Of a stretch of DNA of 64,000 nucleotides, positions 13,099 through 54,637 are shown piece by piece; the first letter of the stretch is position 1; each line of letters opens with the position of its first letter. The position numbers were made by a program, and so were the translations under genes. The notes below the pieces were generated by a model. That model made no database searches and was not told the origin of the DNA. It saw nothing but the letters and a program-made list of their open reading frames with translations. Source of the stretch: Sergeia podlipaevii (taxonomy: Eukaryota > Euglenozoa > Kinetoplastea > Trypanosomatida > Trypanosomatidae); contig JASANZ010002255.1 in the NCBI GenBank assembly GCA_030849805.1, positions 53,268 through 117,267 on the forward strand, in the 5' to 3' direction.

Positions 13099-13981
13099 TA
13101 GTCCCACTCCCCCCACACTTTCTCTCTCTCTCTCTCTCTCTCTCTTGTATATATATACACACCCACGTACACTTACACGTGATTATATATACTGAAAGAT
13201 ACACAGAAAGAAAAAGATTAGTCAGGAAGGAGAAAAGATGTGGTTCAGGCAGCTGGCGCTTTGTTATTTTTTAAAGAAGAAGAAGGAAAAAGATTAAGCG
13301 GTGACTGCTGTTGCTGCTATTGTTGTTGATAACATCTATTTTTGAAGAATAAAAAAATAAAAAGCAAAAAAAAACAGCAAGATAGCGAGCGAGAGCAAAA
13401 GGATGAGATTGAGTGACTTCAGCAAGCAATGACATAAACAGCACATAAGCAATAGCATTACCGAAGAGAAGTCTTATAATTTTTTCAAAAAGGTGCACAA
13501 TTATATTATTCGTATATGAGGATGTCAACTTGACTGTACTGCCTCTCTCTCTCTCTCTCTTCCCCCTTCCCACTTGCTCGGCTATTATCATTTCTCCTTT
13601 TTTTTAAAAAATTTTACTTACCATTATTTAACGACCTGTACCCACGTCAAGAGCAGAATCACCATTGAACAACAATAACACCCCCCCCCCCAAAAAAAAA
13701 AAAAACTCCATGAGATGTGATGCAGCAACTATGGCACTCCCCCCCCTCCTCACCACTAGTTGCTAAGCTGCTGAGCAGCTAATCAAAAAATAAAAATAAT
13801 AAAAAGAAAGAAAGAAAGGAAAATGCAACTTGTACGCACACTCGCGTTCGCCAAGTTTCTGATTGAGTCTTAACTGTGTGCCACCCCACAACACTTTCTC
13901 TCTCACCAATGTCTTCTTCATCCACTTTTTTTTTCCGCGCGTGTTTATATATATAAGGAGAATAAACTTCCTCTTGTGTCC
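13099..13981. other. Intergenic spacer, PPWD1-like / MHD-like
   Basis: Contains (TC)12 at 13121-13144 immediately upstream of the PPWD1-like ATG, a TA stretch near 13149-13157, plus-strand purine-rich sequence near 13190-13240 (candidate splicing tract), (TC)n near 13543-13560, a C10/A13 junction near 13681-13704, and A-rich sequence near 13785-13820. No gene seen. Confidence 0.6.
13121..13144. repeat. (TC)12 microsatellite just upstream of the PPWD1-like gene
   Basis: Perfect dinucleotide repeat. On the transcribed strand it reads (GA)n and supplies many AG dinucleotides within about 50 bases of the ATG, so the trans-splice acceptor may fall inside it. Confidence 0.9.
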
Positions 13982-19753: not shown

Positions 19754-22700
19754 TCACATCCACATTCCGGGGATAACATCCTCCTCGTTCTCCACCGCTT
19801 CCATAAGTGGACCACCAATCATGCACAGCCTACCGTGCTCAGTGCTCGCAAACACATAGCAGCCCCCATGCACAGCATCGTAGAAGGAAGCGACGCTGTT
19901 GACGACGCCACAGCGGAACTGTTGCTGGTGATGATACGGCAGGGTATCTGGCCCACTCCTTGCATGAGAGGCATGTCCTGCTGGAGGTGCGAAGAGCGCA
20001 GCAACAGTGCTGGCGGCACTCTGACGAGATGCATCTTGCCCCATGACGTTGGCTGCTGCCTCACCGGATTCCGCTGTTCTTTCTTCTACATGCCGCAGAA
20101 CAAGCGACGCCAGTGCGCTTTGAATGGCTTCCCTCTGCTGTGCAGCTAATTGAAAGGGCTCGTGCAGCTGTTGCTGTTGCTGTTGGTAGGGGTACCACGT
20201 ACACCGTGAGTCTTCACCGCCAAGGTAGGTCGTTGTTGTGCTGCCGTCTGCCGCGAAGTGGCAGCTGGTGGAGGATGCTGCTGCTGCTGCCCGGTACGCC
20301 CCAGCGCGGGTATCAAAAGTGTAGCCCCGATTGGGGAGGACGAAGCTCAGGAAGAGGCCAGAGGAGGGCCGCCTGCCACCACCACAGCTTGCCTGAGCCT
20401 TGGCAAGAAACGGCACGATCCCCAAAAGATCTATTTGGCCGCGCACTACCGCAGTGGGGCCGAAGAGATTCACGAGGGCATCGAGCGTGTATAGACGCTG
20501 CTGCTGCCACCGTTGGCGCTTCTTAACGAGCTGGCGTGGGAGGGAGTGCTTTGCGAGTGCCACCTGGGGTGACTGGCGACAACGAGGTAGTGGATCTTGA
20601 TGAACCATCCTTTTCTTCCCCTGTGCTGCTTCCTTGTTCATTTTCTCACCTTTTCTACTTATGCTGCTGCAGCCCCCTTTGATCCTTTCCTCCTCGTCTT
20701 CCGTCTCTCCTTCCCCCTTGTGCAGGGACATGACGGAGTCCGATGAACGCGTGGAGGCAGAGTCGTCGCCGTCGCCGTCAGCGTCATCAGCGGACTTGAG
20801 TGTGCCATCGTCAAGTCCGTCGGTAAGAATGCGCTGCATGACGCGTTGCCGCTGTATTTCCGCTGCTGTCGCTAGGTCAAAGAGGGGGTCGAGCCCACCT
20901 GCTGCACCACACTCTAACGAATCCTGAAACACTTGTGTGCTGCTTAAGCATGAGTTCCTCACCCCAATTCCAGGCGCCGGACTCACGGCAGTGGTTTTCA
21001 CTGTCTCTTCGTTAGGAGTGGGGCATGCGAGACTTCTCTGCAGGCGGACAGTGCGAAGTCGGTCCCCGCTCATCGCGTCAAACACGTGAACTGTTTCGTT
21101 AAGACCACCAACAGTGAGTAGGATAGTCTCAACTCCCAAGGTGGACACATTAGCTGCTGCTGCTGCTGCCTCGCTTCCCTCGGGGAAAGGGAAGGGGGCC
21201 GCCGCTGCGATCTCTTCATCTCCATGCTGTTGCTGCTGCTGCTGTTCTTCATCAGCTTGCTGCGCTGGTCCGTCAATAACGGCAGCAGAACACTGCAGGA
21301 GATACAGAGGGGCCTTGTGAGTGTTGCCATGGGTAGGGATCACACCGTTCAATGTGTTCTCCAGATTCGGCTTCACCGGGCACACAGGGATAACGCGCAA
21401 AACATGACTAAGAAGGACATCAAACACAAGACAGGCATAGAAGCCGGGCTTAAACTCAAGGGGTTTGGTGCTATCCATAAAACTGCGAAAAGGGCCCACT
21501 GACGCCATGATGAAGAGATAGCGGCCGTTCTTAGCCGTTGGTGCTAGAGCCATCCCATTCCACGCCGCAGCATCTTCGTCGTCTGCTAGTGCCCTCACGT
21601 GTCTTTGTGCTGCCGCTGCTGCGCTCCCAATGTTGCTCACGGGGATGGCCTCGCTGTGGTAGGTGATCGCAAAAGCACGCGCTTCGAGCATTGCTGCACT
21701 CTCCGCTACTGCGGCTTCGCTAAAGCTGACTCGTGGCTCGGCAGGATTCTGCTGCTCCTTGTTCTTGGATCGCTTGCTCTTGCTGCTGCTCTTCAATATA
21801 ATGCCTCTTTTCTTCTTCTTGATTTCCTTCACGCTCTCGCCTTCCCTCTCCCTCTCGCACTCGGTTATACCAAAGCTGCTCAAGCTCGTCCCAGCCTCTC
21901 TACATGCCCTGGCTACTCTTCGTACCCACCTTGTGTGCTGTTTCTCTTCTCTCGCGAGGGCCGTCGTGCTCGCCTCATCCTTCCATTGTGGCTCTCCAGA
22001 AACTGCCATGCTCAGCAGGCGGTACGCGGGGCCGCTCGGCCCCATGTTGAGGTCCGCGCTCCGAGTGTGGTGCAGTCCACCGGTGTGGGTGAGAGCCCAA
22101 GGTACCGCGCTAAAGAGGAGGCAGGTGCCACTCTGATAGCGGATACGTGGAATCCTCGCGGTTGCGCTGTGAGGCTTCGTGTGTAGAGGGTGGCTGCCGG
22201 TGGAGCCAGTGGAGGTGATGTTGAATGCATCCTCAGCGGTATAGGCAACGGACAAGTGATCAAGAGGACTACGTGTTTCTGCATCTTCTTCCTCGTCATT
22301 ACCCAAGCGAGTAGTAGTAGTAGCAGTAGCGGCGTAGCCGGCAGCAGTGCGTAGATGACGCCGCTGGCGCTCCTCCTCATCATCAGAGGTGGTAGGATCT
22401 AGTTGGGCGTGCAGCGCGAGCGGATCGGACACCTTCAGCGAAAGCACTTCTTCAATCAGTTTACGCCCTGTCCTGGCCACTTCATCTGCTGCAATCGCTG
22501 TCGGCCTGTTCACCTCATCTGTCCCTCTTTCACCTCTTCCTTCTCCCCTGTGAAGCGTGTAGCGCCGATTCTGCGCCTGCTGCTGCTGAGTAGAGGAGCC
22601 TGAAGAACTGTGATGATTGTGATGATGGCCACGGAAGAAGCGCGAAAAGGCCGCCACTGCAGCGTTGGTTGCTGCAGCCGCGCGTGAGTACCGCCTCACC

Positions 22701-25700
22701 GGCCGCGCCGCACCCCCTGACGCGTCTTGTGCGCTTCTTCCGACAGCGCTGATAATAGCGCCTTCTTCGTTGTCCTGCACACTGGCGTCTGCCACGGCGC
22801 TCGAGCCACTACGCGTCACGACGAGCTCAGACCGAACGGGCACAAGCACGGCGCTACGGTCAAACTGCACGATACGAGTACCAGCGAAGTAGGCGGTGGG
22901 AAGCTCTGGGTCCGCGCGAGGCTCCTGCTGCCGCCGATGAGTTTCCGCGGCAGACCTCAGCAGCGTCATAGAGGCAGGCAGACCCCTCTCACAAACAATG
23001 GTGTAGCGAGGCGGCGATTGCGGGCCTGCGGCAGCGAGACTGTTTGCCGATGGCGTCGTGATGGCCGCCGCGTTGCTGCTCATGCTCTCGCCAGGGATAT
23101 CTAGTTCATTCCACGCGTCGTACATCGCCAGCTGTCCGTCATCGCAGATCGTGTAGATAGCCTCCATGAGGGGAGAGACGATGAGGTCTTGTAGTGAGGG
23201 GGTATGGATGCGCTGCACCACCACGCCACTCGCCGGCAGCCAGCGTACAATGATGTTATCATAGGTGCTGGAAAGGCACTGATAACTGTGCAGTCTAGAC
23301 TGCAGAGCAAGGCGCCACGCACACGTTTCCACATCTATAAATATATTGGTTGTTGCCGTGCCGGTGGTTGCTACTCGATCACCTCCAGGCTGTGTCGTTG
23401 TCTTGTGAATCTGTCGAGTGCAGAAGTCCTGCACTGCCGCGGCGTGGTCAGACGCATCACCGAGACAGGTGCTCCACCCGCCACCCCAGAAGCGTGGATC
23501 CACCCAGCGGGTCTGAACGAGCGGTTTCTCACTCACTTTGAATGTAGCGTAAAGTCTGTCTGGCGTGCGCAGCATCTGCTCTAGAGCCGCCTCTGTGGTC
23601 CCCGCTGAGGGTACAGCCGCACCAGAAGCAGCCGCGGGGAGTGTGTTGTTGCCACTTCCTTTGGGAGACACCCCTGTTATGGATGACTGCCTGCTGGCGA
23701 CACTTAGTGCAATGGGAGGAGGAGCAAACACACCTGTGTCAGCACCGCCGTCTCCACTGACCTGCCCCGCAGCAGCTGCTGCTCCTCTCCCTCCTCCTCC
23801 AGCGCTGCCACCGGCACTATTATCCCTATGGAGGGAGTAGATGCTCACTTTCCCTGTGCATGCAGGAACGACGCTCAACTCCCCTTCCTCCCTTTGCGGA
23901 ACTGCAGTTGGCGCGTACTGCACAGAGGCTAGAACACTGCGCGCATCGGGGGAGAAGTGCACCAACGCACTCGTTGCTTCGTACCAGTGGGGGTGCTCTG
24001 GCATGCCATCGAGCACCGTATCCAACAGTAGCTCCTCCCGCGCATCTAACGAGTTTGGTGAAGCCTTCAGTGCAAAGACCACAATCCGCCCACGCGCAGT
24101 CACAAAGGCCAGCAGAGTGCCACACGGGGTAACAGTGACATGCTGCACTTCCTCTGTGACTTCATCGGCAACGCGCTGAAAAAAGTCGTCGGCCGAGCTG
24201 GCAATTGAATCGTGATCGTCCTCTTCCTCCTCCTCCTCGGCTCCTGCCGTGCGTGTCGCGGTCGCCGTTGTGGTGTCCTCCGTTTCTGACAGCTCCGACG
24301 TTGCCGTACCGCCTTCCATGTGCTGCATCGTGGCATCAGAGGTGGCAATCACACGCTCCACAATAGCACTCAGGTCTCGAGCCATGCGACGGATGACGGA
24401 GGAGGTGCGCCGCTGCCAGCGGGAAGGGGTGCGAGGACGAGGTCGTGGCACGGGTGCGCTGGCAGGAGACTGCGACGATTCTCTCCCCGCTCTTCTTCTT
24501 CTTGCCGTGGCGGCGTCTGCAGGGGATGCTGGCACAGATGTCTGTCGAAGAGTAGCCGACGCGGTAGAAGCACGCGCTTGACGTTGAGGTCCTCCCATGC
24601 TTGCTAGGGTTTCTGCATGGGGCATAGTGTGACTTGCGGCTGTAGAGGAGGCGGTGGGAGAGGCACAAGTGGCCGTGACAGCCGCCATCGCCGCCACCGC
24701 GACAGCTGCTGCGGCTTCTGCTGTTGTCGCTGCGGTCGGCGTGGTAGCGGCACACTCTGAGAACGAGGCTCCGCTAGCTCCTGTTCCTCCACCGGCTGTG
24801 GACGGCAGCGGCGCAGTGCTGTGCTCTTTCACGTTTGACAAGATCGGCACCACATCGCCTCTCGGCTTCACATCTCCGCCAGATGCACTCAGCTGTTGTG
24901 CTTGAAACCTTTCCAGTCTTGCCCTCTGCACTGTCACCAGCGCACTTTGCATCGCTCTCAGCTGCAGCACTACTGGAAGCCCAGAAGCAGGGTGTACAGA
25001 CTCGAGCAGGACTCTGTGATTCGATAGCGCACGTCGTAGCAGATGGCGCTGGTGCTGTTGCCGGACAACCCTTGCTGATTCCCAGTCTCTGCGCTGGAGA
25101 CTCCCACTTCCGCCTGCGCAATCGCCACCGTGATAGCTACTATTCGACTTTATAGAGGCAAGCAAAGCCGCGGGAGCGGTGCCGGTGCTCAGAGCTTGCA
25201 GCATCTGCTTGTATTGTGCGGGCTTGATGACTGGGACAGAGGAGGAAGGGGAAGAGGATAGTGGTGAGCCAATGGCGGTCGCCATGGCGTTTTGAAGTGG
25301 AAAGAAGTTTGAATAAAGCGCTGCTTCTCCGTCTGCAGGGTAAGTGTGAGGCATCGCAGGCCCTTCATCCACCTGTCTCGCAGGCATATGCCTGAGTGAA
25401 CTCGGCACGCTCCTGCCGCCCAACGTACTGCTCCACCCACATGGTGTTCCTTTCTGAAGTACCAAGGCTTCAGCTAATGTGCGGTGCGCTGAGGCTGAGG
25501 CAGCAGCAGCGACGAATGCGCTATCAGAGACCGTGGCCGTCATCGAGGATAATTGCCAGATGGGAAGTGGTCTTTCGTCACCTTGCGCTTCCTCTCGAAG
25601 CGTAGCACCCTCTCCGCGATGTTCCTCGTTGACGCTTTCATGGGCTCTATTGAAGTCCTCGATGGGAGCTGCGGAAAGCCAGAGTTGACAGACACCCCCT

Positions 25701-27688
25701 CTAAATTGACCGGCAAGCACAGCGACTTTGCTCGCCAGTGCTTCTTCCTGCGCAGCCACAAGACCACCACCATCGCCACTCTCCCTTTGATCTCTATTCT
25801 GCGTCGCGGATGTCTCTTCCTTCCCCTCTTCTTGCTCCTCCCTTCCGTGGGTGTGCAGCTTCTCTGCAGGATATTCTTCTAGGTCGTCTGCACAGCGCGT
25901 GAGCCACTTGCCCTGAACTAGAACCAACTTCCCTACAGCGATGCTCATCGTCTGCATACGTGGCGTCGTGGTGACTGGAGATGATGGTCTGCTGGTGTCA
26001 CCATCGACTGCACACGAGGAGGATGGCGGCGGAGGGAGAAGCAGAACGAGTTCCTTGAGAGAATCTAGCATCCACAGCACTGCCTGGGCTCTACAGGTGC
26101 AGTGCACAATGGAAAGATAGGCACCACGGAGATTACTGTGGATGCTCCGCTGCACGGCTTTGCTCACTTCTTCACCAGCCATGACGCTACTGGTAGAGAG
26201 GAAATTGGTGCTTGTGCATGTACCGGCACCCACCGCCGCAGCCACCTCAGAAAACATATCGTCCAAAAGAAGACTTGATCTTGGCAGCGCGCTACTAGAC
26301 ATATGCACAGCAGTGGCAGTGGCAGCAGTAGCAGTGCCGTTGCTCTCTTGCACCGTAGAGGCCACATACCACCCCTCAATGTCGGAGCTACTGTACTGCT
26401 GCAGGACCCATCGCAGCACACACTCCATCTTGCTAGTCCAAGCACCAGAGGTGACGGCGAGAGAGCTAGCGATGCGGGCCGTGAGAAGGCGGTATGGCAA
26501 ATGCTCCCCACAAGGAGATGCGTCCGCTGATGCGATCCACGTCGAGCCACTGTCCTCCTCTTCCTCCGTATTGGCAACAACTGCCAAAGCCTCGCGACGC
26601 AGCTCGCTGAGACAGGACTGAAGACGTGTGGCACAGTGCAAGACAGCGCTGCGTGCTTCCTTCAGCATAGGGGCAGAATAGACGCCGCCTCCGCCATCTC
26701 TCAGAGGATTAGAGAATGCGTCGTGGTGGATTTCTCCCTTTCCATTGTTACGGCAGTTGCGCAGACTGCTGTTACTACTGCTGGTTGTGGGAGTGCCGAG
26801 AGGGCGACTACGTTTCTGTCTCTTTGTTGTTTTCTTCTTACCGACTATTATTTTCTCCTCCCCCTCCTCCTCGTCATAATCGTTGTTTCCTTGCGCTACT
26901 AGCACCTCCGCAGCTTTTAGCGAAGTGCTGTGCTGCCAGGTAAGGGTGTCGCACCGCAATACACACTCCGACAGCTCCAGCTGAAGCCACAACACTCGGC
27001 AGTAGCCTAGAAAAAGAGAGACGACAGCCCGCACCGCCTGGCCGTCATTGTCATCGTCATATTCTTCCTCCTTTGGCGGACTAGAATGGTAGGGAAAATA
27101 TCGATGACTATTGATTATCTCCCCTTCATTAGTGGTGTCTGTGACTGTGCCCACAGAGAGCTCATATACACAGTCCACGACGCCACGGAGGGCATCCATT
27201 ACCTCTTGTTCAGCGGAGATGTAAGCGCCACTAGTGTTGCTGACGCTTCTGCTACTACTCTGCGTGACGAGAGCAACCGTGCATTGGGCCAAGGCGTCCG
27301 CGCAGTGCTTCAGTCTGTTTTGTTTCTGCTCTGAGAGATGCCTTGTAATGGCTTCAATAGAGTGCTGCTGCTGCTGCTGTTTCTGTTTCTGCTCAATCGT
27401 TGCTGCTTGAATACCTTCCCGCGTGCCAGCGTAGTCCTTCCCAAGGCCAGTGCTGCTGGTCATACCCTTAGCACTGTCCTCTGAAGCTGGTTTGATACCG
27501 CTGTTGCTGTTGCTGTTGTGATGAAGTGCACTGACAGATGCATGCGATGAACCACCATAAAGCTTGCCGAGCTCACAGGATAGAGCTGTGGCGGTGTCGT
27601 GAAGCCCCATAGAGCGAAGAAGCTGGTGGAGTAGGGTGTCATCGTCACTGATGGCGCCGCGCTGGGACGTGTCCAGATTGTGTGCCAT
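19754..27688 (-). CDS. Giant LisH-motif protein with divergent WD40/beta-propeller blades
   Basis: 2644 residues in one uninterrupted frame. Residues about 17-45 (DDTLLHQLLRSMGLHDTATA, then LSCELGKL) fit a LisH dimerisation motif. An alpha-helical N-terminal half is interrupted by Gln, Ser, Glu/Asp and Ala runs (for example residues near 105 and 1050-1090). From about residue 1160 come blade-like repeats: VQHVTVTPCGTLLAFVTARG with RIVVFAL; a KVSIYSL blade; YDNIIVRWLPASGVVVQRIH, followed by a blade with CDDGQLAMYDAW; ETILLTVGGLNETVHVFDAM; and a final CYVFASTEHGRLCMIGG. LisH plus propeller architectures serve as scaffolds and ubiquitin-ligase receptors in other eukaryotes, but I could not match this one to SMU1, LIS1, DCAF1 or BRWD proteins. 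There is a Lys/Arg-rich, possibly nuclear-targeting patch near residues 1990-2010. The function is unknown. Confidence 0.7.
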   Translation of the reverse strand: MAHNLDTSQRGAISDDDTLLHQLLRSMGLHDTATALSCELGKLYGGSSHASVSALHHNSNSNSGIKPASEDSAKGMTSSTGLGKDYAGTREGIQAATIEQKQKQQQQQHSIEAITRHLSEQKQNRLKHCADALAQCTVALVTQSSSRSVSNTSGAYISAEQEVMDALRGVVDCVYELSVGTVTDTTNEGEIINSHRYFPYHSSPPKEEEYDDDNDGQAVRAVVSLFLGYCRVLWLQLELSECVLRCDTLTWQHSTSLKAAEVLVAQGNNDYDEEEGEEKIIVGKKKTTKRQKRSRPLGTPTTSSSNSSLRNCRNNGKGEIHHDAFSNPLRDGGGGVYSAPMLKEARSAVLHCATRLQSCLSELRREALAVVANTEEEEDSGSTWIASADASPCGEHLPYRLLTARIASSLAVTSGAWTSKMECVLRWVLQQYSSSDIEGWYVASTVQESNGTATAATATAVHMSSSALPRSSLLLDDMFSEVAAAVGAGTCTSTNFLSTSSVMAGEEVSKAVQRSIHSNLRGAYLSIVHCTCRAQAVLWMLDSLKELVLLLPPPPSSSCAVDGDTSRPSSPVTTTPRMQTMSIAVGKLVLVQGKWLTRCADDLEEYPAEKLHTHGREEQEEGKEETSATQNRDQRESGDGGGLVAAQEEALASKVAVLAGQFRGGVCQLWLSAAPIEDFNRAHESVNEEHRGEGATLREEAQGDERPLPIWQLSSMTATVSDSAFVAAAASASAHRTLAEALVLQKGTPCGWSSTLGGRSVPSSLRHMPARQVDEGPAMPHTYPADGEAALYSNFFPLQNAMATAIGSPLSSSPSSSVPVIKPAQYKQMLQALSTGTAPAALLASIKSNSSYHGGDCAGGSGSLQRRDWESARVVRQQHQRHLLRRALSNHRVLLESVHPASGLPVVLQLRAMQSALVTVQRARLERFQAQQLSASGGDVKPRGDVVPILSNVKEHSTAPLPSTAGGGTGASGASFSECAATTPTAATTAEAAAAVAVAAMAAVTATCASPTASSTAASHTMPHAETLASMGGPQRQARASTASATLRQTSVPASPADAATARRRRAGRESSQSPASAPVPRPRPRTPSRWQRRTSSVIRRMARDLSAIVERVIATSDATMQHMEGGTATSELSETEDTTTATATRTAGAEEEEEEDDHDSIASSADDFFQRVADEVTEEVQHVTVTPCGTLLAFVTARGRIVVFALKASPNSLDAREELLLDTVLDGMPEHPHWYEATSALVHFSPDARSVLASVQYAPTAVPQREEGELSVVPACTGKVSIYSLHRDNSAGGSAGGGGRGAAAAAGQVSGDGGADTGVFAPPPIALSVASRQSSITGVSPKGSGNNTLPAAASGAAVPSAGTTEAALEQMLRTPDRLYATFKVSEKPLVQTRWVDPRFWGGGWSTCLGDASDHAAAVQDFCTRQIHKTTTQPGGDRVATTGTATTNIFIDVETCAWRLALQSRLHSYQCLSSTYDNIIVRWLPASGVVVQRIHTPSLQDLIVSPLMEAIYTICDDGQLAMYDAWNELDIPGESMSSNAAAITTPSANSLAAAGPQSPPRYTIVCERGLPASMTLLRSAAETHRRQQEPRADPELPTAYFAGTRIVQFDRSAVLVPVRSELVVTRSGSSAVADASVQDNEEGAIISAVGRSAQDASGGAARPVRRYSRAAAATNAAVAAFSRFFRGHHHNHHSSSGSSTQQQQAQNRRYTLHRGEGRGERGTDEVNRPTAIAADEVARTGRKLIEEVLSLKVSDPLALHAQLDPTTSDDEEERQRRHLRTAAGYAATATTTTRLGNDEEEDAETRSPLDHLSVAYTAEDAFNITSTGSTGSHPLHTKPHSATARIPRIRYQSGTCLLFSAVPWALTHTGGLHHTRSADLNMGPSGPAYRLLSMAVSGEPQWKDEASTTALAREEKQHTRWVRRVARACREAGTSLSSFGITECEREREGESVKEIKKKKRGIILKSSSKSKRSKNKEQQNPAEPRVSFSEAAVAESAAMLEARAFAITYHSEAIPVSNIGSAAAAAQRHVRALADDEDAAAWNGMALAPTAKNGRYLFIMASVGPFRSFMDSTKPLEFKPGFYACLVFDVLLSHVLRVIPVCPVKPNLENTLNGVIPTHGNTHKAPLYLLQCSAAVIDGPAQQADEEQQQQQQHGDEEIAAAAPFPFPEGSEAAAAAANVSTLGVETILLTVGGLNETVHVFDAMSGDRLRTVRLQRSLACPTPNEETVKTTAVSPAPGIGVRNSCLSSTQVFQDSLECGAAGGLDPLFDLATAAEIQRQRVMQRILTDGLDDGTLKSADDADGDGDDSASTRSSDSVMSLHKGEGETEDEEERIKGGCSSISRKGEKMNKEAAQGKKRMVHQDPLPRCRQSPQVALAKHSLPRQLVKKRQRWQQQRLYTLDALVNLFGPTAVVRGQIDLLGIVPFLAKAQASCGGGRRPSSGLFLSFVLPNRGYTFDTRAGAYRAAAAASSTSCHFAADGSTTTTYLGGEDSRCTWYPYQQQQQQLHEPFQLAAQQREAIQSALASLVLRHVEERTAESGEAAANVMGQDASRQSAASTVAALFAPPAGHASHARSGPDTLPYHHQQQFRCGVVNSVASFYDAVHGGCYVFASTEHGRLCMIGGPLMEAVENEEDVIPGMWM

Positions 27689-29119: not shown

Positions 29120-32100
29120 TTATCGCAGAGGTCCCATACCCAGTCTTGTGCGTAACGCCATCTGTGTACTCCGCAGCAACGTGAGAATCTTCACAAACTG
29201 GTCCTGCTCCTCCCGCGTGTACCAGGATGGAATCACTAGCGGGATGATGGGAAGCTCTGCGTGCGCACCAGCCCCCTCCACGTTCATTCCCTTGGCACCA
29301 CCCATTGCCGCTCCAGCCGCACTCATGGAAGTGACAGCAGCGGTCGTCGTCGGGGACGCTAAGCCGCCTGAAAACTGCGGGGAATGTGGAAGAGGAATCC
29401 CACCACGCGAATCTGCAACTCGACCGCGTCTCACACTAGTCACAGAGAAGGTACTCCCTGACGATGTCGCACCACTGCCCTTGGTTGTGGCACTACCACC
29501 ACTGCCGCCCACCACCGTGGCTGCCGAGCCTGAGCTGCCAAGGGAGCTCTCAGAGGTCAACTGAACTGCGCGGCACACAGGTGGCTGCACCCTCTCCTCC
29601 ATCACATCATCCAAGTAGGATTCTAAGAGCGTCAGCGCCGTCTCGGGGTCACCGGCTCTGCTAGCAATGAAGTCTACTGTGTTCTGCACCAGCGCCGCGC
29701 GGATGGGGTCGTGTGGAGAGAGCAGTATGTTTGCCTCTTCCAGAGCGGCGGTGTAGAGCTGCGTGACGTCCTGATAGGTGCCTACGATGGGGTAGCGGAA
29801 GCGGTGGTGATGAACAAACGTTGTGATGGCACGAATTGGCACGCCTGAGCTCTGCTGCTGATCTGTAAGCTCCCTAAATGTACTTCGCAAGGCCGTAGAC
29901 AAAGGCTGGGATCCCACAGACCGCGCGCTGCTGCGTGTGGCTATTGCTGGCGGAGCAGACACACCACCGGTGAGTTTGTCAGTGCCAAGCTTAACATCAG
30001 GAGCCTCACTCATGCCCGCTGCTGCTGCTACTGCTTGTGCCTCGTCTCGCGACCCTCCACCATCACTACCTGCCACCTCCCTTTGCTGTTGCTGTAGCGG
30101 CAAAGATGCGGCAGTGGCGGTAGCGCTGCTGCTGCTCGTGACGCCTGGTGCAGGATTGACGGCGGCGTCTGCTGCTGCTGCTGAGCTTCCCTCTAACTCA
30201 GTCGCATTCTCCTCACCATCCTCTCCCTTGCCCTTCCTCATGGGCCCGAAGACGGCCAGCAGGGAGTGAATGGACTCTAAATCCATGCCGCGCACTGCAG
30301 CCGCAACGAGTCGGCTCATCATGTATCCTTTCGGTATCGGAACTACCGTGCCTTGGTCCAGCAGCGCTTGAGCTGCGCGTACCGCGACGGAGTCACTGGT
30401 AGAGAAGACTGAAGCTGCAGTCACGGCGGACCGACCGCGAGTAACTCGAGAGTTTCCTGCTGGGCCAAAGTCTTGTGCGGGGGACGGCCCCACAGCCGCG
30501 TAGCCAGTCTGTGAGTTGCCACTGGTGAGCAACTGAAGATTGCATCCCGGCACAAGCAAGGCCGTAGGGTCAGCGGTGAGAGCGTCACCAGAGCCATGTG
30601 TAGAAGCGGCTGCATAGAAAACGCTACTAGGCGTGTTGGATGCGCCGCCAAGAGACGGCGTATTACTGAGATGGTTGCGGTGGTTAAGATGAAGGCCTGA
30701 GGGAGAAGAAAAGATACCGCCGTCTCCTCCTACTGTAGGACCAGCAGGACCCAAAGGAGCTACACTGCTAGACGACGCCCTGCCACTTCCTTCACGCTGC
30801 TGCCTCTGCTGCTGCGCTGCTACTAGTTGCGGCACCCCGCCGGTGCTGCCGCGAGCGTCTGGAGTCGGGGTCCGGGATGCAGCACCAGAGAGTATTGTGG
30901 TGGTGACACTGCTGCTCTGGGATGGGAAGGGAGGTGACGTGACAGAGATGTCTGGCACCGCTGCCGGGCTGCTGCACTCCACACCTCGCAGATTTGGGTG
31001 CAAACGCATGTCGCGCGCCTCTTCCTTCCCTTCAAGGGCCTCCCCTCGCTTTTGTGAATCGGATGGCCCTAGTGGAAGAGAAGATCGCTGCTGCTTTTGC
31101 TTCTTCTTCAGTTTCCCTCGCTGATTGGGCGATGCCAATGTGGGAAGGGGGTGATCGTGACCTGCCGCCTTGGCACTGCTTGCGTGTCGTGTTGCATTCG
31201 TCGTGGTAGTGGTAGTCGTCATCGTTGTGGCAGGACGTGTGGCAGAGGTTCTCAGAGAAGGCACGGAATGACTGTGAGATGCCTGTATAGTGGAACCGGA
31301 GACCGCGTGTACCTTGCGCGCTCGCCCCTTTCCGCTGGCCGTCGTAGTACCAGTAGTCGTGGCCACCGCAGCAGCGTCAGACCTATTAGTAGCTGCATTG
31401 CCCCCTGTTGACATACTACGCTTACTGTTGCCGCTGTTGTGGTCACGCGCGCCATCAGTACCGGGGGTGGCAATGTTGTTGGCGGTGTCGCCGCTGCCGT
31501 TATTGTTGTTGTTGTGATCCAAGATGGAGGAGAAGCGATCGAGTAGGTTCTCTTCATAAAGCAGTCGATAGAGGTCGCATACCCACTTGCGATAAAACAA
31601 CCACGTGCGATGATCCGAGACGTAGACGGCGGGAATCAGCCAGTCCAGAATGGTACTCACTACGCGAAAAGTGAGGAGTCCAAGTTCGCTACGGACCTGT
31701 TGCTCCATGCTTACTACAGGAGCAAGGGAGGCTTCAACTTGTCGGAGCATGTTTTCCACCTCTACTCTCATGATCGTAGCAAGGGTGCAACCACCGTTGT
31801 CACCGCTGCTAGCGTTGTTGTTGTTGTTGTTGTGGTCGTTATCATTGCCATTGTTATTGTTTGTATTCCCAGAGCGAATAGTGAACGCATTGTCGCCTAT
31901 TACGTTTGCAACGTCTTTGAGTGAGTCCGCAAAGGACATCACTAGCGCCTGCTGTCTGCTGCTACCACCACAACCACCAACGGTATTGTTGTTGTTATCA
32001 AGCGAGGTCCCCATGATGGGCTGCGCCAGCGTAGTGGAGGGAGGTATGCCGGTGGGTGAGGTGATACAGGAGTTAAAAGAGGCGTTGGTGACACCCTGGC

Positions 32101-34402
32101 GCGATTGCTGACCAATACTCACTTCATCTGTAGAGTCCATGTGCCACATCATATGATGATGCTGCTGCTGGGCGGTGGTGATAGCAGCGATGCTTCGGTT
32201 GTTAGTATCACCTTCAGCATAACTCGAGGTCAGTCGCGCAAGGGCTGACACTACGACGTGAACAACGCAGTCCACACCACGGATGCGATGACCATTGCCT
32301 TCCGTGAGGATGCCAAGATCGATAGTGGATAGAGACAGTAGGCTTTCTGGTCGTATGTAGGTACTGTCGTTCCACGGGGACGCACCTAGACTATTGTTAT
32401 TTTGGTGCTGTTGCTCACTAGGGCTCTGTAGGGTTTGGCTGCGACTGCTTCGCTCCACACCGCTAGAGGTTGCTGCCATATTGCGAGCGGCCAACACTGG
32501 CGCCGCTGCTGCAACCGCTTCGATACCTGCCTTGTAGTTGTGAAGAGAAGGGCAGAACACCTTGAAAAGCTCAAGCGCCTCAGGAGAAGGAATAAATGGC
32601 GGTGCAGGGACTTGACCTTGCTGCTGTGCAGGCTGCTCAGTAGCCGTCGGCAGAGTCTGTGCTTGGGAAGCAGGTGCAGCAGAGGAGCGCCTGGCGATGT
32701 CTCTCAAGGGGCCATCACGACCTCCCGTCATTGCTGCTGCTGCGGATACAAGGGAAGGGCTATCGCGATGTATGCCACCGTTTCTATGACCGCCAAAGCC
32801 GACGCCAAGACCGCTTTCTGTCACACTTGGCAGATCCTCAAAACTGCCTGGGGCAGCTCCCGCTGTAAAGGAGAGTGTGGGTGCGGTCCCTAGCAAACTT
32901 TCCGTTATTACCGCAAGCACCGCTGGGATTGTCAACCAGAAACTCCACTGGCCGCTACCGCTGTTCTGCTCGTTCATGCAGTTGCCAACGCCGACAGCGT
33001 TGCTATTGCCAAGAATTGGATTACCAAAGGAGTCCACTAGAATACCTGCGATAGTGTCTGCAGACGAATTCATGCCGCCTCCACCCCCACTGAGACCGCT
33101 GTTGCCCGTCCAACCTCCTCCTCCAGCACTCAAGTTGGCGCCGAAACTGGCAACCCGAGTTATCTTCCGCCGCACACTACTGTCAGTACCACCTGTACTG
33201 CCACGTGCGGAACCACCGATGCTAGCATTGTTGGTGCTGCAGTTACCACCATTACCAGTGCCAAACATAGAGGTCTTCCCGGAAGCCCCAGCTAGCAGCG
33301 CCAGAAGCGCACGAATATCAGTCGACGCAACTCCTGGCTGCTGCTGCTGCTGCTGCTGTGAATTAACGTTTATGGTTAAAGGTGGAGTGAGGACCGTGAC
33401 AGGCAACACAGTTTCTGGGACGCACTGCGATGCGCAATCCTTCAAAGAATAAGGGTTGCCCAGAAAGGCAAAAAACGACTTTTCCCAAATGGTCTCCACC
33501 TGTTGTGGTTGGTGCTCATGGTAACTCTGCTGTGGTGACCCTACGCGCGTGGACGCTGACGCAGCTCTAGCAGCCATGTGCGGGGGTGAAGCCGGCGAGG
33601 ACTCACTGGTGTCGCTACTATGCGCGTTGGTGGTGTCACGACAATCTGGTGCCCCACTTGCCGTCGTGTCATTGCCCTCAGACACGTTGACAGGGCCCTG
33701 TATCGAATCTGTCGATGCGATCGTACTATCCAGGGTGTCAGCGCCATGACGCGTGATCCCCACGCGTCGCCTGATGTGCACTCGGAGGGAGTTCTGGAGT
33801 TCTGTGCGCCTCTGGCTACTAAACACTTGTGGTGGCGGCGGCGGCCCGGTAGAGGTAAAAAAACTGCGATTCGCTGATCGAGGGGCATACTCCCACATCG
33901 ATCCGTTGCCCAAGTTGCTGGTGTTGGCGGCAAAGTAGGAGCCGAAACTGATGTTATCGAGGGCGGTTGCTGCCATTGGGGTTTGGCGTGTCGAGTTCGC
34001 GGGACTGTGATCTGCCACGCTCATAGTCCCCGCCATTGTTGCTGCCGCTGCTGCGTCTTCACGTGTTTTGCTGTCGCACATATCCTCCAGAGCACTGCAG
34101 CGCTCGAGCAAACTGTATTGAAAATCGCGGAGCTCCTCCAGCCTACAGCGCATCTGCGTCACTTTCCGGAGCTCACTCACACGCTGATACACAAGGTGAT
34201 CCACAGTGCTGACAAAGAGGCTGCGCTCCTCTGGTTTCAACACCGCATCAAAGCGCACAAGCGCCAGCAGTAGCTCGACCATGTACTCGTAAGAAATGCG
34301 TGTGTTGTTCTGCTCGAGGTTCTCAAGAAGTGGTTGAAATTCGTTGCGAAGGTCAGAGGCAATGGTTGGCAGCATCATGCCAGCTGCTATGGACGACGTC
34401 AT
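29120..34402 (-). CDS. Giant split 14-3-3-like protein with three large low-complexity insertions
   Basis: 1760 residues. Block 1 (about 20-90) aligns without gaps to 14-3-3 helices A-C around LKPEERSLFVSTVDHLVYQR (canonical L-S-N-E-E-R-N-L-L). Block 2 (about 885-960) contains EQQVRSELGLLTF, LDWLIPAVYVSDHRTWLFYR and CDLYRLLYEEN, matching canonical helices D-E (K-F-L-I-P, V-F-Y-L-K-M-K-G-D-Y-Y-R-Y-L-A-E). Block 3 (about 1540-1605) contains LYTAALEEANILLSPHDPIR, ALVQNTVDFIA and ETALTLLESYLDDVMEE, matching helices F-H (T-H-P-I-R-L-G-L-A-L-N). Block 4 (about 1727-1757) contains ILTLLRSTQMALR, matching helix I. Together they give about 240 residues, the length of a normal 14-3-3. Insertions of roughly 790, 580 and 120 residues fall between them; they are Ser/Gly/Asn/Gln/Thr-rich, with Asn and Gln runs. 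By alignment the phosphate-binding Lys49, Arg56 and Tyr128 of 14-3-3 zeta are Asp68, Val75 and Leu947, while Arg127 is kept (Arg946) and Asn173 is Asn1574. The ATG at 34402 directly follows an A run. The function is unknown; ordinary 14-3-3 dimers bind phosphoproteins. Confidence 0.8.
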   Translation of the reverse strand: MTSSIAAGMMLPTIASDLRNEFQPLLENLEQNNTRISYEYMVELLLALVRFDAVLKPEERSLFVSTVDHLVYQRVSELRKVTQMRCRLEELRDFQYSLLERCSALEDMCDSKTREDAAAAATMAGTMSVADHSPANSTRQTPMAATALDNISFGSYFAANTSNLGNGSMWEYAPRSANRSFFTSTGPPPPPQVFSSQRRTELQNSLRVHIRRRVGITRHGADTLDSTIASTDSIQGPVNVSEGNDTTASGAPDCRDTTNAHSSDTSESSPASPPHMAARAASASTRVGSPQQSYHEHQPQQVETIWEKSFFAFLGNPYSLKDCASQCVPETVLPVTVLTPPLTINVNSQQQQQQQPGVASTDIRALLALLAGASGKTSMFGTGNGGNCSTNNASIGGSARGSTGGTDSSVRRKITRVASFGANLSAGGGGWTGNSGLSGGGGGMNSSADTIAGILVDSFGNPILGNSNAVGVGNCMNEQNSGSGQWSFWLTIPAVLAVITESLLGTAPTLSFTAGAAPGSFEDLPSVTESGLGVGFGGHRNGGIHRDSPSLVSAAAAMTGGRDGPLRDIARRSSAAPASQAQTLPTATEQPAQQQGQVPAPPFIPSPEALELFKVFCPSLHNYKAGIEAVAAAAPVLAARNMAATSSGVERSSRSQTLQSPSEQQHQNNNSLGASPWNDSTYIRPESLLSLSTIDLGILTEGNGHRIRGVDCVVHVVVSALARLTSSYAEGDTNNRSIAAITTAQQQHHHMMWHMDSTDEVSIGQQSRQGVTNASFNSCITSPTGIPPSTTLAQPIMGTSLDNNNNTVGGCGGSSRQQALVMSFADSLKDVANVIGDNAFTIRSGNTNNNNGNDNDHNNNNNNASSGDNGGCTLATIMRVEVENMLRQVEASLAPVVSMEQQVRSELGLLTFRVVSTILDWLIPAVYVSDHRTWLFYRKWVCDLYRLLYEENLLDRFSSILDHNNNNNGSGDTANNIATPGTDGARDHNSGNSKRSMSTGGNAATNRSDAAAVATTTGTTTASGKGRARKVHAVSGSTIQASHSHSVPSLRTSATRPATTMTTTTTTTNATRHASSAKAAGHDHPLPTLASPNQRGKLKKKQKQQRSSLPLGPSDSQKRGEALEGKEEARDMRLHPNLRGVECSSPAAVPDISVTSPPFPSQSSSVTTTILSGAASRTPTPDARGSTGGVPQLVAAQQQRQQREGSGRASSSSVAPLGPAGPTVGGDGGIFSSPSGLHLNHRNHLSNTPSLGGASNTPSSVFYAAASTHGSGDALTADPTALLVPGCNLQLLTSGNSQTGYAAVGPSPAQDFGPAGNSRVTRGRSAVTAASVFSTSDSVAVRAAQALLDQGTVVPIPKGYMMSRLVAAAVRGMDLESIHSLLAVFGPMRKGKGEDGEENATELEGSSAAAADAAVNPAPGVTSSSSATATAASLPLQQQQREVAGSDGGGSRDEAQAVAAAAGMSEAPDVKLGTDKLTGGVSAPPAIATRSSARSVGSQPLSTALRSTFRELTDQQQSSGVPIRAITTFVHHHRFRYPIVGTYQDVTQLYTAALEEANILLSPHDPIRAALVQNTVDFIASRAGDPETALTLLESYLDDVMEERVQPPVCRAVQLTSESSLGSSGSAATVVGGSGGSATTKGSGATSSGSTFSVTSVRRGRVADSRGGIPLPHSPQFSGGLASPTTTAAVTSMSAAGAAMGGAKGMNVEGAGAHAELPIIPLVIPSWYTREEQDQFVKILTLLRSTQMALRTRLGMGPLR
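33339..33358. repeat. CTG/CAG triplet run encoding poly-Gln in the 14-3-3-like protein
   Basis: An uninterrupted triplet run inside the first insertion, coding for a Gln stretch on the minus strand. Similar GTT (AAC, Asn) runs lie near 31500-31517 and 31815-31835 in the same gene. Confidence 0.7.
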
Positions 34403-35390
34403 TTTTTTTTTTTTTTAAATGAAACGAAAAGGTGACTATATAAAATTCAAGGCCACTTCAATGAACTTCCCCCCTCCACTTTGTGTCTCTCTTTCTCTCT
34501 CTCGCACACCTTATCGCTAATATTTGGAGGTATACGAATGCTACAAGTAAAAAAAAAAAGTTGGGTAGATTAGAAAAAAATGAAGATAATATATTTTTCC
34601 TTCTCTATCTTCTCTTGTCGCTTTACGTATATGCGGACGTATGCGTTTGTGATAAAGTAAATGAAAATTAACATTATAATGCAGAAGAAGAGAAGGGAAA
34701 GAAAAGGAAGAGAAAAAGCAAACATTAGATAGATAAGATGCACGATGAAACATCTTGCCAGCATATGTATGTACACTGAGCATACACACATACACAGAGA
34801 TATGAACACCTGTTAAGCAGCCTCATGCAAGTTCCAGGTACCACACCTGCGTAAAGAGTCCATCTTTCATGTAGTGAAGATACATTCACTGCCACAAACA
34901 CAGGCTCTCTCTCTCGTATACTTTTGTTTCTGTACTTTCAATGCACACACATTTCTTTTTCCTTTTTTTTAAATCGTGGAGGGTGACGGCGACTGACTCT
35001 TGGTGCGCTGCTCTCTTCTCATGACTTCAAGAGGCATATAAAGAAAGCAAAAAGAAGAGGAAAGAGACGCACCGGGGTATCAAGCAATGAATAAATAGCA
35101 CTCATCGCATCCTCTTAACAAAAAGAAAAAATATATGTATATATATGTTAACTTACTATTACGCGACTAAATGCTTAGAACAACGACAATAACAACAACA
35201 GCAGCAACAACTAATGAAGCAACACATACACGCGAGTATGCGCCTCTGAGCTAGGCAACGGCGGCCCGTCTCCCTCTAACTCGCTTCTTTGCGCCATGGT
35301 AATGAACTTCACCACACTCTCACTCTCCCCCCCTCCCATTTCGTTCAACAGGCTTTCTCTCTCTTCTCCTTTTTTATATAAAAAAAAAAT
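34403..35390. other. Intergenic spacer, 14-3-3-like / PWP2
   Basis: Begins with a T run (A run on the coding strand) that abuts the 14-3-3-like ATG. CT-rich sequence near 34490-34503, an A run near 34548-34559, TA-rich sequence near 35130-35150 and an A run near 35380-35390. Somewhat GC-richer pieces near 34815-34880 and 35225-35300 contain no convincing frame. No gene seen. Confidence 0.6.
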
Positions 35391-39595: not shown

Positions 39596-42500
39596 TTAGT
39601 AGACTGTATCAGCGCAGAGTTCATCGTCCAGATCCGCATCAAACTGGCCAACGACATTCCACTGAGAGCTTGTCTCGCGACTGAAGCTATCATAAAGACT
39701 AGCGCTCGCTGGGTACGTGTTCGCAATGGCATCATAGAAGTACTGTGCCGTACTCATCATCTGTTCATCCGTGTTGTTCGCCAGACGCATCAAGGGCATG
39801 TACACATCAGGCTTGAACTTTTCAGCTGAGACGCACTTGGTAGCCGCAATGGCACCGGCGGCACGCAGAAGCCACATGGCGGTCATCTTGTCCCTAATTC
39901 CGAAGGCCGCTGCCGCGCGCAGGTGCTCCGCGGCGACATCGAGGAACGTCTGATCGGTACGGCCAGGTGCACACACGGTAAGAGAGTACACCAGGGCAAA
40001 GCCCGCAAGCGCCTGGACGCCCTTGGTGGAGGTAGACGCCAAAGCCCGTTCCTTGATATCCGAGAGAGCCTCCTCGGACATGCTAGCGGACTTGCACAGA
40101 GCACCAACCGCCACACAAGCAGCGGTGGCCTGCGCCGGGCTCTCAGCGTTCTCCCAAATGGGTCGGACAAGGTCCATGAGCTTCTGGATGTGCGGGAACG
40201 CCTTTTCAAAGTTGGCGTAGCGCATCACGGTGGAGATAAAGCGGCACATCACAGTGCGCAGCAGCGGAGAGTCCACCGCAGCCTTCTTGGTGACGACCGT
40301 ACCGAGAATGAGATCGGCGTACTTCTCTGAGCGGTGCAGCAGCTGGATCACTACACGGAGCGCCAGCACGCGGGCCTCACCGCTGTCACACAGCGCGGCA
40401 TTGAACATGGCCAGCGCCATGGTGCCCTCCACCATCTTCTCCTTACCACTCGCAGGGTAGTCCATAAGCTGCAGGCAGAGGCGCACGAGCGCGAGCACGA
40501 CGCTGCCCTCGTTGCGCGTGAAGAGCACCTTGGAGCAGCGACCAGCGACCGTGTTGGCAGCCGCCGCGCTGATTGCGCGTGGCGCAAATTCCATCAAGTC
40601 CTGAATGCACTCGACCGCCTCCACCTTCTGCTGAGGGGTGCCGTAGTCCAGTCCGCGATTGTAGAAGGCCATGAGGGACTCGAAGAGGCGAGGTTCGCCC
40701 TCACCGAGAACAGTGAATTCAGGAGTAGAAGATGAGATAAAGGCACGTGCGGTAACGGCAAGAGTGAGTTGAAACACTTCCAAGTACTGAAGCAGGTAGC
40801 GTCCGGCGGCACGCTTGCTCGCGGTGACGTCCTGTTGGTCCTCTTCAGGCATCTCGTCAACCACGCGCTGCTCCAGAGATGAAATGATTTCCGGAATCAT
40901 GCGAGCCGCGTTGAGGCGAGTCTCGTTGTCGTCGTCACCAAGCGCGGTGATGGCGGCACGAAGCACATTGATAATGCCTTCCGTGTTCTCAATGCTTGCG
41001 GCGTAGCAGAAGGCCTCCGCACAGAGAAGTGCGCCAAGACGGCGCTCAGGCACGTTGAGGGCCTTCTGAATGTACTCAATGGGCATGTCTTCGTACTCAC
41101 GCGGGCACATCTCGATGAACTTCTGCATCACATCCGTGGCACCCGGCAGGCGCTGAATGGTAAAGCTGAGCAGGAGATGGATCGTGTCATCGATGTACTT
41201 GCACATTTCATCTTCTGCCTCTTCCACGTCCAGAATGGCATCGATGAGCTCGACGTTGCTCTCCGTGTGCGTTTCCTGCGCCTTGAGGTGCTTGAAGATG
41301 AGCGAGAGCGCAATGCTGGGCTTCACCTTGACCACCTCCACCACACCACGTACGCTCGTGGCGAGCTGCGCTACCACTGCGCTCTCAATGAGGCGGGGAC
41401 CAACAGAGCGAGACACCTTCGCAAATACATCACGCGCCGCCTCTTGCACTGCTTCGTCCGCGTCCTGCATGCCTGGCAGGACACAGCCAACGATCTGGCC
41501 ACCCATGCTGATAAGCTTCTTTGAGTCCGCAAACTGCACCACTGTGGAGAGGCAGACGAGGGAGCCAAGCTTGTTGCGGCGCCCTCCAATGTGGTAGGTG
41601 TCGCACAACACATCGACAAAGCGCTCGATGGTCTCGTTCATGCGCGACGTGAACTCGATCGTCTTGGCCGCCACCTCTACACAGTCCGGATTGTCTGAAG
41701 AGCCAAAGTGGACGAGCAGGCGAACAAGGCCGTCAAAGATCTTACTAATAGCGGCGCGGATGCTAGCCACGCAGGCCTGCCACGCCATGTTCGTGTCGTT
41801 GCGCACCGCCGCACCGTGCTCGTTGCGACCGCAGAAGATGGCAGAGAGCATGCGGACAAGATTGTCGGCGCCGAGCATCTCCTCGAGAGAGGCCAGAATA
41901 GACACGCCGCGCTTCTCGACGTCACGGGCGTTCTCCATGGTGAGGATACCGCCCTCCTCCTCGGTAGCAGCGGCGGCCTGATCGATGCCGGTGGTGGCCT
42001 CGATTGTCTCGGCAAGAGCGGCGCGGTCCTCGTCGGCAACTTCGTTGAGGGCCGCCTGAATGCGCATCTTCTTCTTGATGTGAGCGACAAGGTGCAGCAT
42101 CAGCTTCGAAGACAGCAGCAGCGAACTATGGCGCAGCGTTGTGGCCTCGCTGACAACGCCATTGAGCAGCGGATCGAGCACGAGAGAGAGGTTGCGAGTA
42201 CCGTAGAGGCTGATGATGCTATCACCAGCTGCCAGCGCCACGTCACGGACCTTATCAGAGTAGTGAGAGAGACCCTCAAGCACCCACGGGAACGCCACAG
42301 GCAGGAACTTCTGGAAGCTGTCAGTATCAAAGGTGGAGGGGGCGTAGATCATAATGTATAGGAAGCCCTCCCGCACGGCGGGCTTCTCGTCTGTCATACC
42401 AGCCTCAATGGTGGGGAAGTACAGCTCCAGCATAGACTCTCCGCAAGCCTGCACGAGCTCCACAAACACCTGCGCTGCGCCAGACTTCTCGATCGTACCA

Positions 42501-45500
42501 GAGTGAATCTTCTGGAGCACACCGAAGGACCAGCATGCGATATCATCAATCAACTTGCCGCCCACTGCTGAGCTCAGGCAGCCAATGGCCTTGGCGGCCG
42601 TCGTGCGGGCCTCCGTCTGGGGATCCTGCGAGGCCTCCTCAAGGAGCCGCACAAGGTCTTCCGCGTAGGGCTCCAGCGTCTTGGCGTCGTTGACGAGGTT
42701 CACCATGGAGGCAACGATCTGGGCTGCCTTGGCACGGGTGTGAGGCATCTGACCGCTAAGGCCCCGGGAGAGCACAGGAATGATAAGCGCCAGAGAGGCG
42801 GGGTCCACAACGTTGATAAAACGTGTGTAGAGCAGCGCATCAAGAGCAGGCTCAGTTTCCGTACTTGGCAAGCGCATGGCGTTCAGGATGAGGTCAACAT
42901 GCTCTTGGATCTCCGGGTTGGACACAACGCCAGCCACACGTTTCAGAGCGTTGAAGGCGGCCACGGACACAGAGTTGTTCACATCAAATAGGCACCCAGT
43001 GATGTGCTTCATGATCTGCGGCAGCGTGGCAGCGAGCTGCTTGGGTGAGCAGAAGGCGACGTAGCCAATAAACTGCAGCGGCGCCACACGCTTCTTCGCC
43101 ACATCGGAGTCGAGCATCGCAACAAGACGGGGAATTAACTGACGAAGACCGACACCGGTGAGGTTGCGCATCATAACACGAGAGGCGTCATCGGCGCACT
43201 CGGAGATCTTGGGGTCAAGGTCCGCCACGCCTTCGAGCAGAATCGGGGACACAGAGAGCGCGTAGGGCTCAAAGCGGGTGCCGAGAACGTCACAGAGCAC
43301 CTCTACCAGCACCATCGCACCAGACTTCTCCGCCTGCTTCTTCTCGTTACCCGCCTCCGTGATGGTCTCTAGAATGACGTAACGGCGCAGCGAAGACAGA
43401 CCGAGCCCCTGCAGCACACCGACCAGACCCCATGCGTGCGCCTTCTTCTTAATGTAAGAACCAGAGTGCACCACCTGCTTGATGCACTTGCTCATGAACT
43501 CGTCCAGCTTCTCAGAGTTGCGCACCTTCTCGTTTTGCGCAATCTCCCGCATAGACTCGCAGACGCAGCGGTGCACCATGGCGGACTGCGAGTTATTCAA
43601 AGTGCGGTTCTGCTGATCGATGATGGCCTCGAGCAGCTCCGTCTCCTGAAGGCGGCAGCTGATAATGGTGAGCCAGACGGTGGCAGTCGCAAGGTACAGC
43701 TCCTTGTGCGTCTGCGTCGCGTCCTTGGGTGGCTTCGCCAGTCGAGCCTGCAGCTCCGCGGCGATCTTCTTCAGTGTAGCGAGATCCATGTCCTTGAGCA
43801 CGACGCGACCGGCAGAAAGAATGGACTTCATAAGAGACTCACCCGTTGTGAGGGCCTCTGTGAGCGAGCAGAGGTACTCCATCACAAAGGCGGGCACGTC
43901 ACCCTTGTAGGTGGGGGAGAGCGCTTGAAAGGCAATCACACTGGCAATGCCGCCGACGGTGGTGATGTCCTCCGCCCACGCACGCTGCTGCGCCTCCGTG
44001 GTGTCTCTGCGGGCAAAGAGATCCGTCATCACCTCGACGATGCGTTGGGCATTAGCGGGGTACTGCCCGTAAGTAGCAAGGAAGTACAGCAGATCCGTCC
44101 AGTCAGAGGGCTCCAGCACAAACTCGTACTTGGGGTCAGACACAATCGCAATCACGTTCTTGGCGATGTTGGCGCTCGTATTGTCCTTGACAAACACCTG
44201 GGACAGCACGAGGGCACGGCGGCAGGAGCGGAAGTGTGTGAATCTCCCAAAGGAGGCGGCACTGACCTCGCGGACGGAGCTGACGGTGTTGAAGAGGCCG
44301 GCTTCCACCACGGAGAGCCGGGAGCTGGGAATCATCGCCATGAGTGTGTGGAAGCCCTGCTGCACGCTCTTGTAGAGAGACGGGAAGCTTTGAAGAATGC
44401 CGGCAAAGAGCTCAAGCGTTTCTGTGGGCTGCGGAAGGTCAGGCTGGCCGAGGTTCTGCAGCAGCACGCTCAGTAGTTGATGCTGGGTGGCAATGGGAAT
44501 GGTGGTGGCGATGGCGTTGCCGCCGCGGCCGGGCTTAAAGGCCACTCGTGCAAAGGCAGCAAGGACAACAAAGAGCGGCGCTGGCAGCATCTGCGGAAGT
44601 GCCATACGAAGTGCCTGCGCACGAGCAGAGACGGCAGCCACGTCAGCAACGGTGAGAGTGCGCTCACGCGTAAGGTAGGCCACGGCAACGGCGAGCTCGC
44701 GGACCATCGTCGAGAGCGGGGTGCAGGCAAGGAGTCCAACAATGGCGTCGAGAGATAGCACGGAAAGCACAGCTGGCACAGTGGCAACATCATCATCCGA
44801 GCCATTGATCTTGCTGTTGACGCCGCTGCGGCTAGGCGCAGCGCTGCGGTTCAAGATGGACTGAAGTGACGGATACAAGATGGAAACGCCAATCTTGTTG
44901 AACTTGCCGTTGGTGCCTACTAGGCGGGCGGCGAGGAAGGGCATCTTATGCTGGCGAACCGTGGGCAGAATCACCTTGGTGCGCTTCGCCACCTCCGCAC
45001 GAAGAGCGTCACGCCCCTTGGCGAGTGCAATGGCGTCCTTCTTCTTCATATCCAGAAAGTCATCCTCGGAGGTGCCCTTCGGTGCGCGCTCGGGGTAGTT
45101 CTTCAGAAGTTGCTGCTCGCGCAGAGTGCAGTCCTCATACTCGTCCATCACATCATCCCACTCGGCCGCAATAGCACGATCGCGCTCATCAAGGCCCTGG
45201 AAGTAGGCGGCCGACTCCGTAATAGAGGCGAGCAACTGCACGAAAATATCTTCCGAGGCCGCCGCACACGCGGTGCTAGCGCTGTTGGCGTTGACTGTCA
45301 GCAGGAGGGCCACAGCGCGGCACGCCGCGATGGACTCGTGCTCGTGTGCGTGAAGCATCGTGTTGCGTAGGGCGGCCATCAGGGCAGTGCAGATGCGAGG
45401 CTCTGAAAGTAGGTAATTGTACTCATCCGTAAAGACACGATTGAAGTCGCGGACATCGACGTGCTTCTCGCGAGTGCGATAGCGGCGATGCGGGTGGTTG

Positions 45501-54102: not shown

Positions 54103-54637
54103 CTCCTTTTCTTTTTCCTTACTCCCAAAAATTTTTATGAGTGTATGTGTGAGGTTGCTGGAGTTTTCGCTTTCCGCGATCCTTTTTTTTTTTTGAATGT
54201 ACATTAAAAAAAAATTGTAAAGAGATGAGAAAAGCACACACACACACAAAAAAAAAAAAGTAATGACAGCATGATTACGTTTCATAGAGGGTACCCCCTT
54301 CAAGTTTTTTTTCCATACGTAAAGAGAATATATTATTGGCTGTATAGAAAGGCAAGTATACAGGTCGCCAGGGCACACGACGACCCCACCCATCTAGAGA
54401 GGGAAAGAAGACTACTCACAGACATACAAGATAGGTAGTGCTCACCTATAAAAATTCTCTTTTTTTTTTTTTTTGTTGTTGTTTAGTCAGTAATGTTATC
54501 AAAGACGTGCTTAATCTCTCTCACCAACACTTTCTATCTCACACTCATACACACGTCCACAACACATTCATCGTGACATAGTCAAAGTAGGTAATGGAGG
54601 TATAGATCCTTCTCTCTCCGTCTAGCCATCCACCCTT
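54103..54637. other. Intergenic spacer, RPB5z-like / RPB5
   Basis: Plus-strand T runs near 54182-54194 and 54459-54474, A run near 54247-54259 preceded by (CA)n at 54236-54247. CT-rich sequence near 54605-54620. No gene seen; the spacer separates the two RPB5 paralogues. Confidence 0.6.

Follow-up and report, generated by a model that had tools for sequence, protein, structure and literature searches.

Can a 14-3-3 domain be interrupted by hundreds of residues at several points and still close into a single cup, and would such a cup still read phosphorylated partners? 14-3-3 proteins are compact, conserved phospho-readers, and the question is raised by one open reading frame (ORF) in a stretch of 64,000 nucleotides (hereafter the window) from the 23.4-Mb genome of the trypanosomatid Sergeia podlipaevii (assembly GCA_030849805.1, contig JASANZ010002255.1, positions 53,268 to 117,267). 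A preliminary description had proposed that four separated blocks of its product match the 14-3-3 helices in order. We consider it very likely that the protein holds a complete nine-helix 14-3-3 core, built as one cup from four distant segments, and that it is a pseudo-14-3-3 scaffold with flexible arms and without canonical phosphoserine/threonine recognition. Its layout, in window coordinates and protein residues, is the following; the helices of block 1, a part of the window protein that was not itself folded, are transferred from the model of a relative, P0128.

29120..34402, minus strand: ORF of the split 14-3-3-fold protein, 1760 amino acids (aa), ATG start.
34064..34384, minus strand: block 1, residues 7-113, a conserved segment with helices A (11-30), B (35-51) and a long C (57-111); Pfam profile 11-62.
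31784..34063, minus strand: insert 1, residues 114-873, low-complexity, between helices C and D.
31502..31783, minus strand: block 2, residues 874-967, with a long helix D (874-926), helix E (931-950) and an extra short helix (953-967); Pfam profile 74-126.
29807..31501, minus strand: insert 2, residues 968-1532, between helices E and F.
29561..29806, minus strand: block 3, residues 1533-1614, with helices F (1543-1560), G (1566-1582) and H (1586-1602); Pfam profile 137-196.
29264..29560, minus strand: insert 3, residues 1615-1713, between helices H and I.
29141..29263, minus strand: block 4, residues 1714-1754, with a conserved PSW motif and predicted helix I (1730-1753); not significant by sequence alone.

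The 14-3-3 family PF00244 is the sole Pfam family matched by the whole protein, with an E value of 6e-8 and a score of 33.0 bits, just under the curated cut-off of 33.2. It is also the best family for blocks 1, 2 and 3 when each is excised and scanned alone, and the profile stretches that they cover are consecutive: residues 38-89 match profile positions 11-62 (E 0.021), residues ~897-951 match positions 74-126 (E 0.031), and residues 1544-1603 match positions 137-196 (E 0.0029). One additional, weaker Pfam family was found for block 1 (E 0.074) and one for block 2 (E 0.062), and no Pfam family matched the block 4 piece or two pieces containing most of inserts 1 and 2. As in canonical 14-3-3s, EER, LIP and DPIR-like motifs are visible in the window protein. 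A local 14-3-3 hidden Markov model (HMM) was trained on 93 of 121 sequences of canonical type (one from the same genome and 120 listed of 7991 matches, minus 28 outside 215-275 aa). With it, the whole protein reached 13.3 bits, whereas the best of 1000 window-shuffles reached 3.9. The joined blocks scored 22.2 bits, more than any of 4000 shuffles (best 7.3 among 2000 window-shuffles and 8.7 among 2000 full shuffles). Permuting the blocks leaves the HMMER score unchanged because the model is local, so coordinates and structure were used to assess their order.

The four blocks contribute unequally to this signal. An HMM of the family to which the protein belongs (see below) scored 56 of the 93 canonical 14-3-3s higher than any of 1860 shuffles; with single-block models the corresponding numbers were 1, 41, 30 and 0 of 93 for blocks 1 to 4, and 23, 88, 52 and 0 of 93 exceeded the 99th percentile of the shuffles that were reported. 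Thus, the sequence evidence is carried by blocks 2 and 3. Global-mode hhalign aligned block 1 poorly (36% probability), and block 4 (ILTLLRSTQMALR) is without significant sequence similarity; its proposed identity as helix I is backed by the predicted structures and finds no echo in the sequence comparison with the canonical proteins. In a genome-wide PF00244 scan (E ≤10), block 3 of the ORF ranked third (E 0.136), after the two canonical 14-3-3 genes of the genome, L001 and L002; this match alone proves nothing, because two of 14 control genomes reach a similar level. Searches of PDB sequences returned three thrombocorticin rows confined to insert 3 with the window protein (best E 0.11), and a single phycocyanin row with the full-length family profile (E 2.1).

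Structure prediction supplies what the sequence of block 4 does not. The model of P0128, made without any canonical 14-3-3, shows the nine-helix antiparallel 14-3-3 fold with the helices packed together, and helices D-I are present in the model of window residues 868-1760. Foldseek alone yielded E values of 0.12 or worse, with a probability of 1.00 for the 14-3-3 rows listed; as the domain is split, these E values are weak. The match over the entire domain came from VIA-align, a re-comparison of Foldseek's best 491 chains only, in which all 50 rows listed are 14-3-3 entries. No credible match was found in the viral structures of BFVD (18 rows at E ≤10, best E 1.5). Single-cup closure is suggested by the packing of all nine helices in one predicted model, and the polypeptide would thus fold four distant segments into one cup. 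With per-block Pfam matches for blocks 1-3, shuffle controls and structures in agreement, the four ordered blocks of the preliminary description are borne out.

Alignment and predicted structures place the three long inserts in the C-D, E-F and H-I turns, in keeping with the earlier proposal that they occupy inter-helix loops. In the models, helices C and D are lengthened, and insert 1 joins their far ends; in the relative's model, it has a pLDDT below 50 except at one residue. Between fixed block edges, the inserts of the window protein measure 761, 572 and 107 aa, close to the sizes first estimated (about 790, 580 and 120). Together, S, G, N, Q, T, P, A and H account for 64-73% of the residues in the inserts and for 31-42% of those in the blocks. 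Short conserved islands nevertheless lie within the inserts: five in insert 1 (residues 200-211, 304-320, 496-521, 600-632 and 700-724), two in insert 2 (1281-1291 and 1330-1380) and one in insert 3 (1646-1659). The last reads SVxx[VI]RR in nine of 13 aligned members, as judged by eye from the alignment, and the rest of insert 3 is variable.

The islands and blocks were defined with relatives. A homologue search with residues 10-115, covering block 1, gave none at E ≤1 (112 candidates). A search with the joined blocks recovered 12 proteins, with E values from 5e-47 to 1.8e-31 and no others to E 10 among 2181 candidates; the failure of block 1 was therefore a matter of sensitivity, and an absence of homologues was rejected. 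The relatives come from Phytomonas sp. (two), Trypanosoma theileri, T. melophagium, T. conorhini, T. rangeli (two), T. grayi, T. cruzi, T. congolense and Leishmania donovani, the remaining one being P0126. Together with the nearest relatives of the canonical 14-3-3s and with neighbours such as a FAZ1-domain protein, they agree with a trypanosomatid origin of the window. No T. brucei member is among these matches, which does not show its absence. The relatives are 1146-1878 aa long, 11 of the 12 are named uncharacterised, hypothetical or unnamed in their source, and no precomputed Pfam domain is attached to any of them. In the 13-member alignment, the strongest conserved segments are the four blocks, and the insert sites are identical in all members; the inserts range over 463-1001, 251-572 and 78-107 aa. 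PF00244 matches ten members at E ≤1, and three other families match one member each. The 12 relatives of the same layout uphold the earlier suggestion of a distinct subfamily. Within the terms used, no paper on this family was found in the open-licence literature, and the trypanosomatid family to which the protein belongs is apparently uncharacterised so far. No paralogue was found in its own genome at E ≤1 (four candidates scored).

Whether the cup could read phosphopeptides was approached by matching pocket residues (human zeta numbering) to the 13 members by motif. In canonical 14-3-3s, the phosphate is bound by K49, R56, R127 and Y128, and the peptide is anchored by N173, E180, N224 and W228. 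The first four are kept in 0, 0, 12 and 0 of the members, and the second four in 12, 0, 0 and 0. The K49 position is D, Q or G (Asp in 11, never Lys), that of R56 is hydrophobic throughout (L, V or I), that of Y128 is L, F or V, and that of W228 is always L. K120 and R222 are kept in all members and D124 in 12, and the R60 position holds R, K or H in 12. As far as residue matching can tell, most of the canonical phosphate pocket is replaced, with K120, D124, R127 and N173 retained. Canonical dimers form through helices A, B and C', D'; among the positions related to dimerization, R18 is kept in no member, D21 is replaced by Tyr in all and E89 is kept in all. The changed groove positions have a mean pairwise identity of 0.608, against 0.50 for all block positions; in the nine of 13 members compared, this difference does not reach significance (P 0.17). 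The pocket is thus lost, but a new function of the groove is not demonstrated.

Compared with canonical 14-3-3s (PF00244; L001 and L002), the family shares the predicted nine-helix fold and order and K120, D124, R127, N173 and R222, and differs by its length (1146-1878 against ~250-260 aa), its three long inserts, its longer helices C and D and the loss of K49, R56, Y128, E180, N224 and W228. Instead of a compact chain of ~245 residues with short loops, the window protein has 1760 aa and three inserts. Because the phosphate pocket is lost, partner binding is probably phosphate independent, and the cup would serve as a scaffold that holds a partner without reading phosphoserine or phosphothreonine in the canonical way. 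The arms, which are flexible and carry the short conserved islands, may tether additional partners or fold back onto the groove. This role is proposed after SMG6, whose binding to UPF1 is described as phosphorylation-independent and mediated mainly by the low-complexity region beside its 14-3-3-like domain (PMC4132714). For self-blocking, a possible parallel is found in Cryptosporidium parvum, whose diverged 14-3-3s Cp14a and Cp14b were unaffected by three standard phosphopeptides; Cp14b is blocked by its own parts, yet binds phosphoserine in its tail (PMC3154893). The changes described there concern helices, pocket and tail rather than long inserts, and the word "insertion" is absent from the main text; the authors knew such divergence from Apicomplexa only (PMC3154893). 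Both parallels are analogies, not evidence. A more far-reaching version, which we put forward only tentatively, is a trypanosomatid-wide pseudo-14-3-3 whose groove has become specialised anew, for one fixed ligand bound independently of phosphate, perhaps a conserved island of its own inserts. It would then be a self-regulated scaffold with an extended C-D hairpin, in which four segments of a chain of 1.1-1.9 thousand residues fold into one cup.

Of the competing explanations, the one that fares best, though we consider it unlikely, is a true phosphopeptide-reading 14-3-3, merely decorated, in which other residues substitute for the lost pocket. The retention of R127, D124 and N173 in 12 members and of K120 in 13, together with a basic residue at the R60 position in 12, would fit it, as would SMG5 and SMG6, which have tyrosine for the SMG7 pocket lysine and are described as weaker phosphoserine sites (PMC4132714). 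It has to contend with an Asp for K49 in 11 members and a Lys in none, with a hydrophobic residue for R56 in all, and with the universal loss of Y128, E180, N224 and W228. Less probable still is that the protein corresponds, in trypanosomatids, to the SMG5/6/7-EST1 14-3-3-like/TPR proteins and not to 14-3-3 itself. SMG5, SMG6 and SMG7 share a 14-3-3-like fold, and SMG6 likewise couples a diverged domain of this type with a low-complexity region; as far as they are described, however, helical hairpins adjoin their domain, whereas in the present family low-complexity regions interrupt the domain itself (PMC4132714). The EST1-type family is absent from the Pfam matches of the 13 members (E ≤1), and the 50 structural rows, drawn from the best 491 chains, are all 14-3-3; a PF10374 search of the genome gave no match, but is uninformative, as none of 14 controls matched either. 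Chance resemblance of helical segments within a large low-complexity protein, to which single-block Pfam E values of only 0.003 to 0.03 and none for block 4 might point, is scarcely credible given the shuffle controls, the block order, the concentration of the strongest conservation in these blocks and a nine-helix model obtained without canonical 14-3-3 input.

The ORF is preceded, 138 nt upstream of its ATG, by a polypyrimidine tract ending in AG, which matches what would be expected of a spliced-leader acceptor. This element and the other genes noted in the window are the following.

34541..34560, minus strand: candidate spliced-leader acceptor, read from the sequence, with its function inferred.
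53218-54393 and 54638-55339, minus strand: two neighbouring genes for RNA polymerase subunits of the RPB5 type, with Pfam Rpb5 C and N domains, the N-domain match being short in the first.
39596-47911, minus strand: ORF of 2771 aa, probably GCN1-like, with HEAT repeats of the EF3/GCN1 type.
19754-27688, minus strand: 2644-aa ORF, no Pfam family at E ≤0.01.
56575-61428, minus strand: ORF of 1617 aa that matches the FAZ1 conserved domain in two stretches and, weakly, PDZ.
9757-13116, minus strand: 1119-aa ORF with a C-terminal cyclophilin domain.
16400-18667, minus strand: ORF of 755 aa that partly matches acyl-CoA-binding protein, slightly below cut-off.

Trypanosomatids include agents of human and plant disease, and the pseudo-14-3-3 scaffold, if real, would add a conserved, unnamed scaffold candidate to their biology. 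Research on 14-3-3 proteins has been said to be "largely a study in conformity" (PMC3154893). If the reading preferred here is true, a fold kept across inserts of up to 1001 residues, together with the loss of most of its phosphate pocket, would indicate how much interruption a 14-3-3 domain may tolerate.
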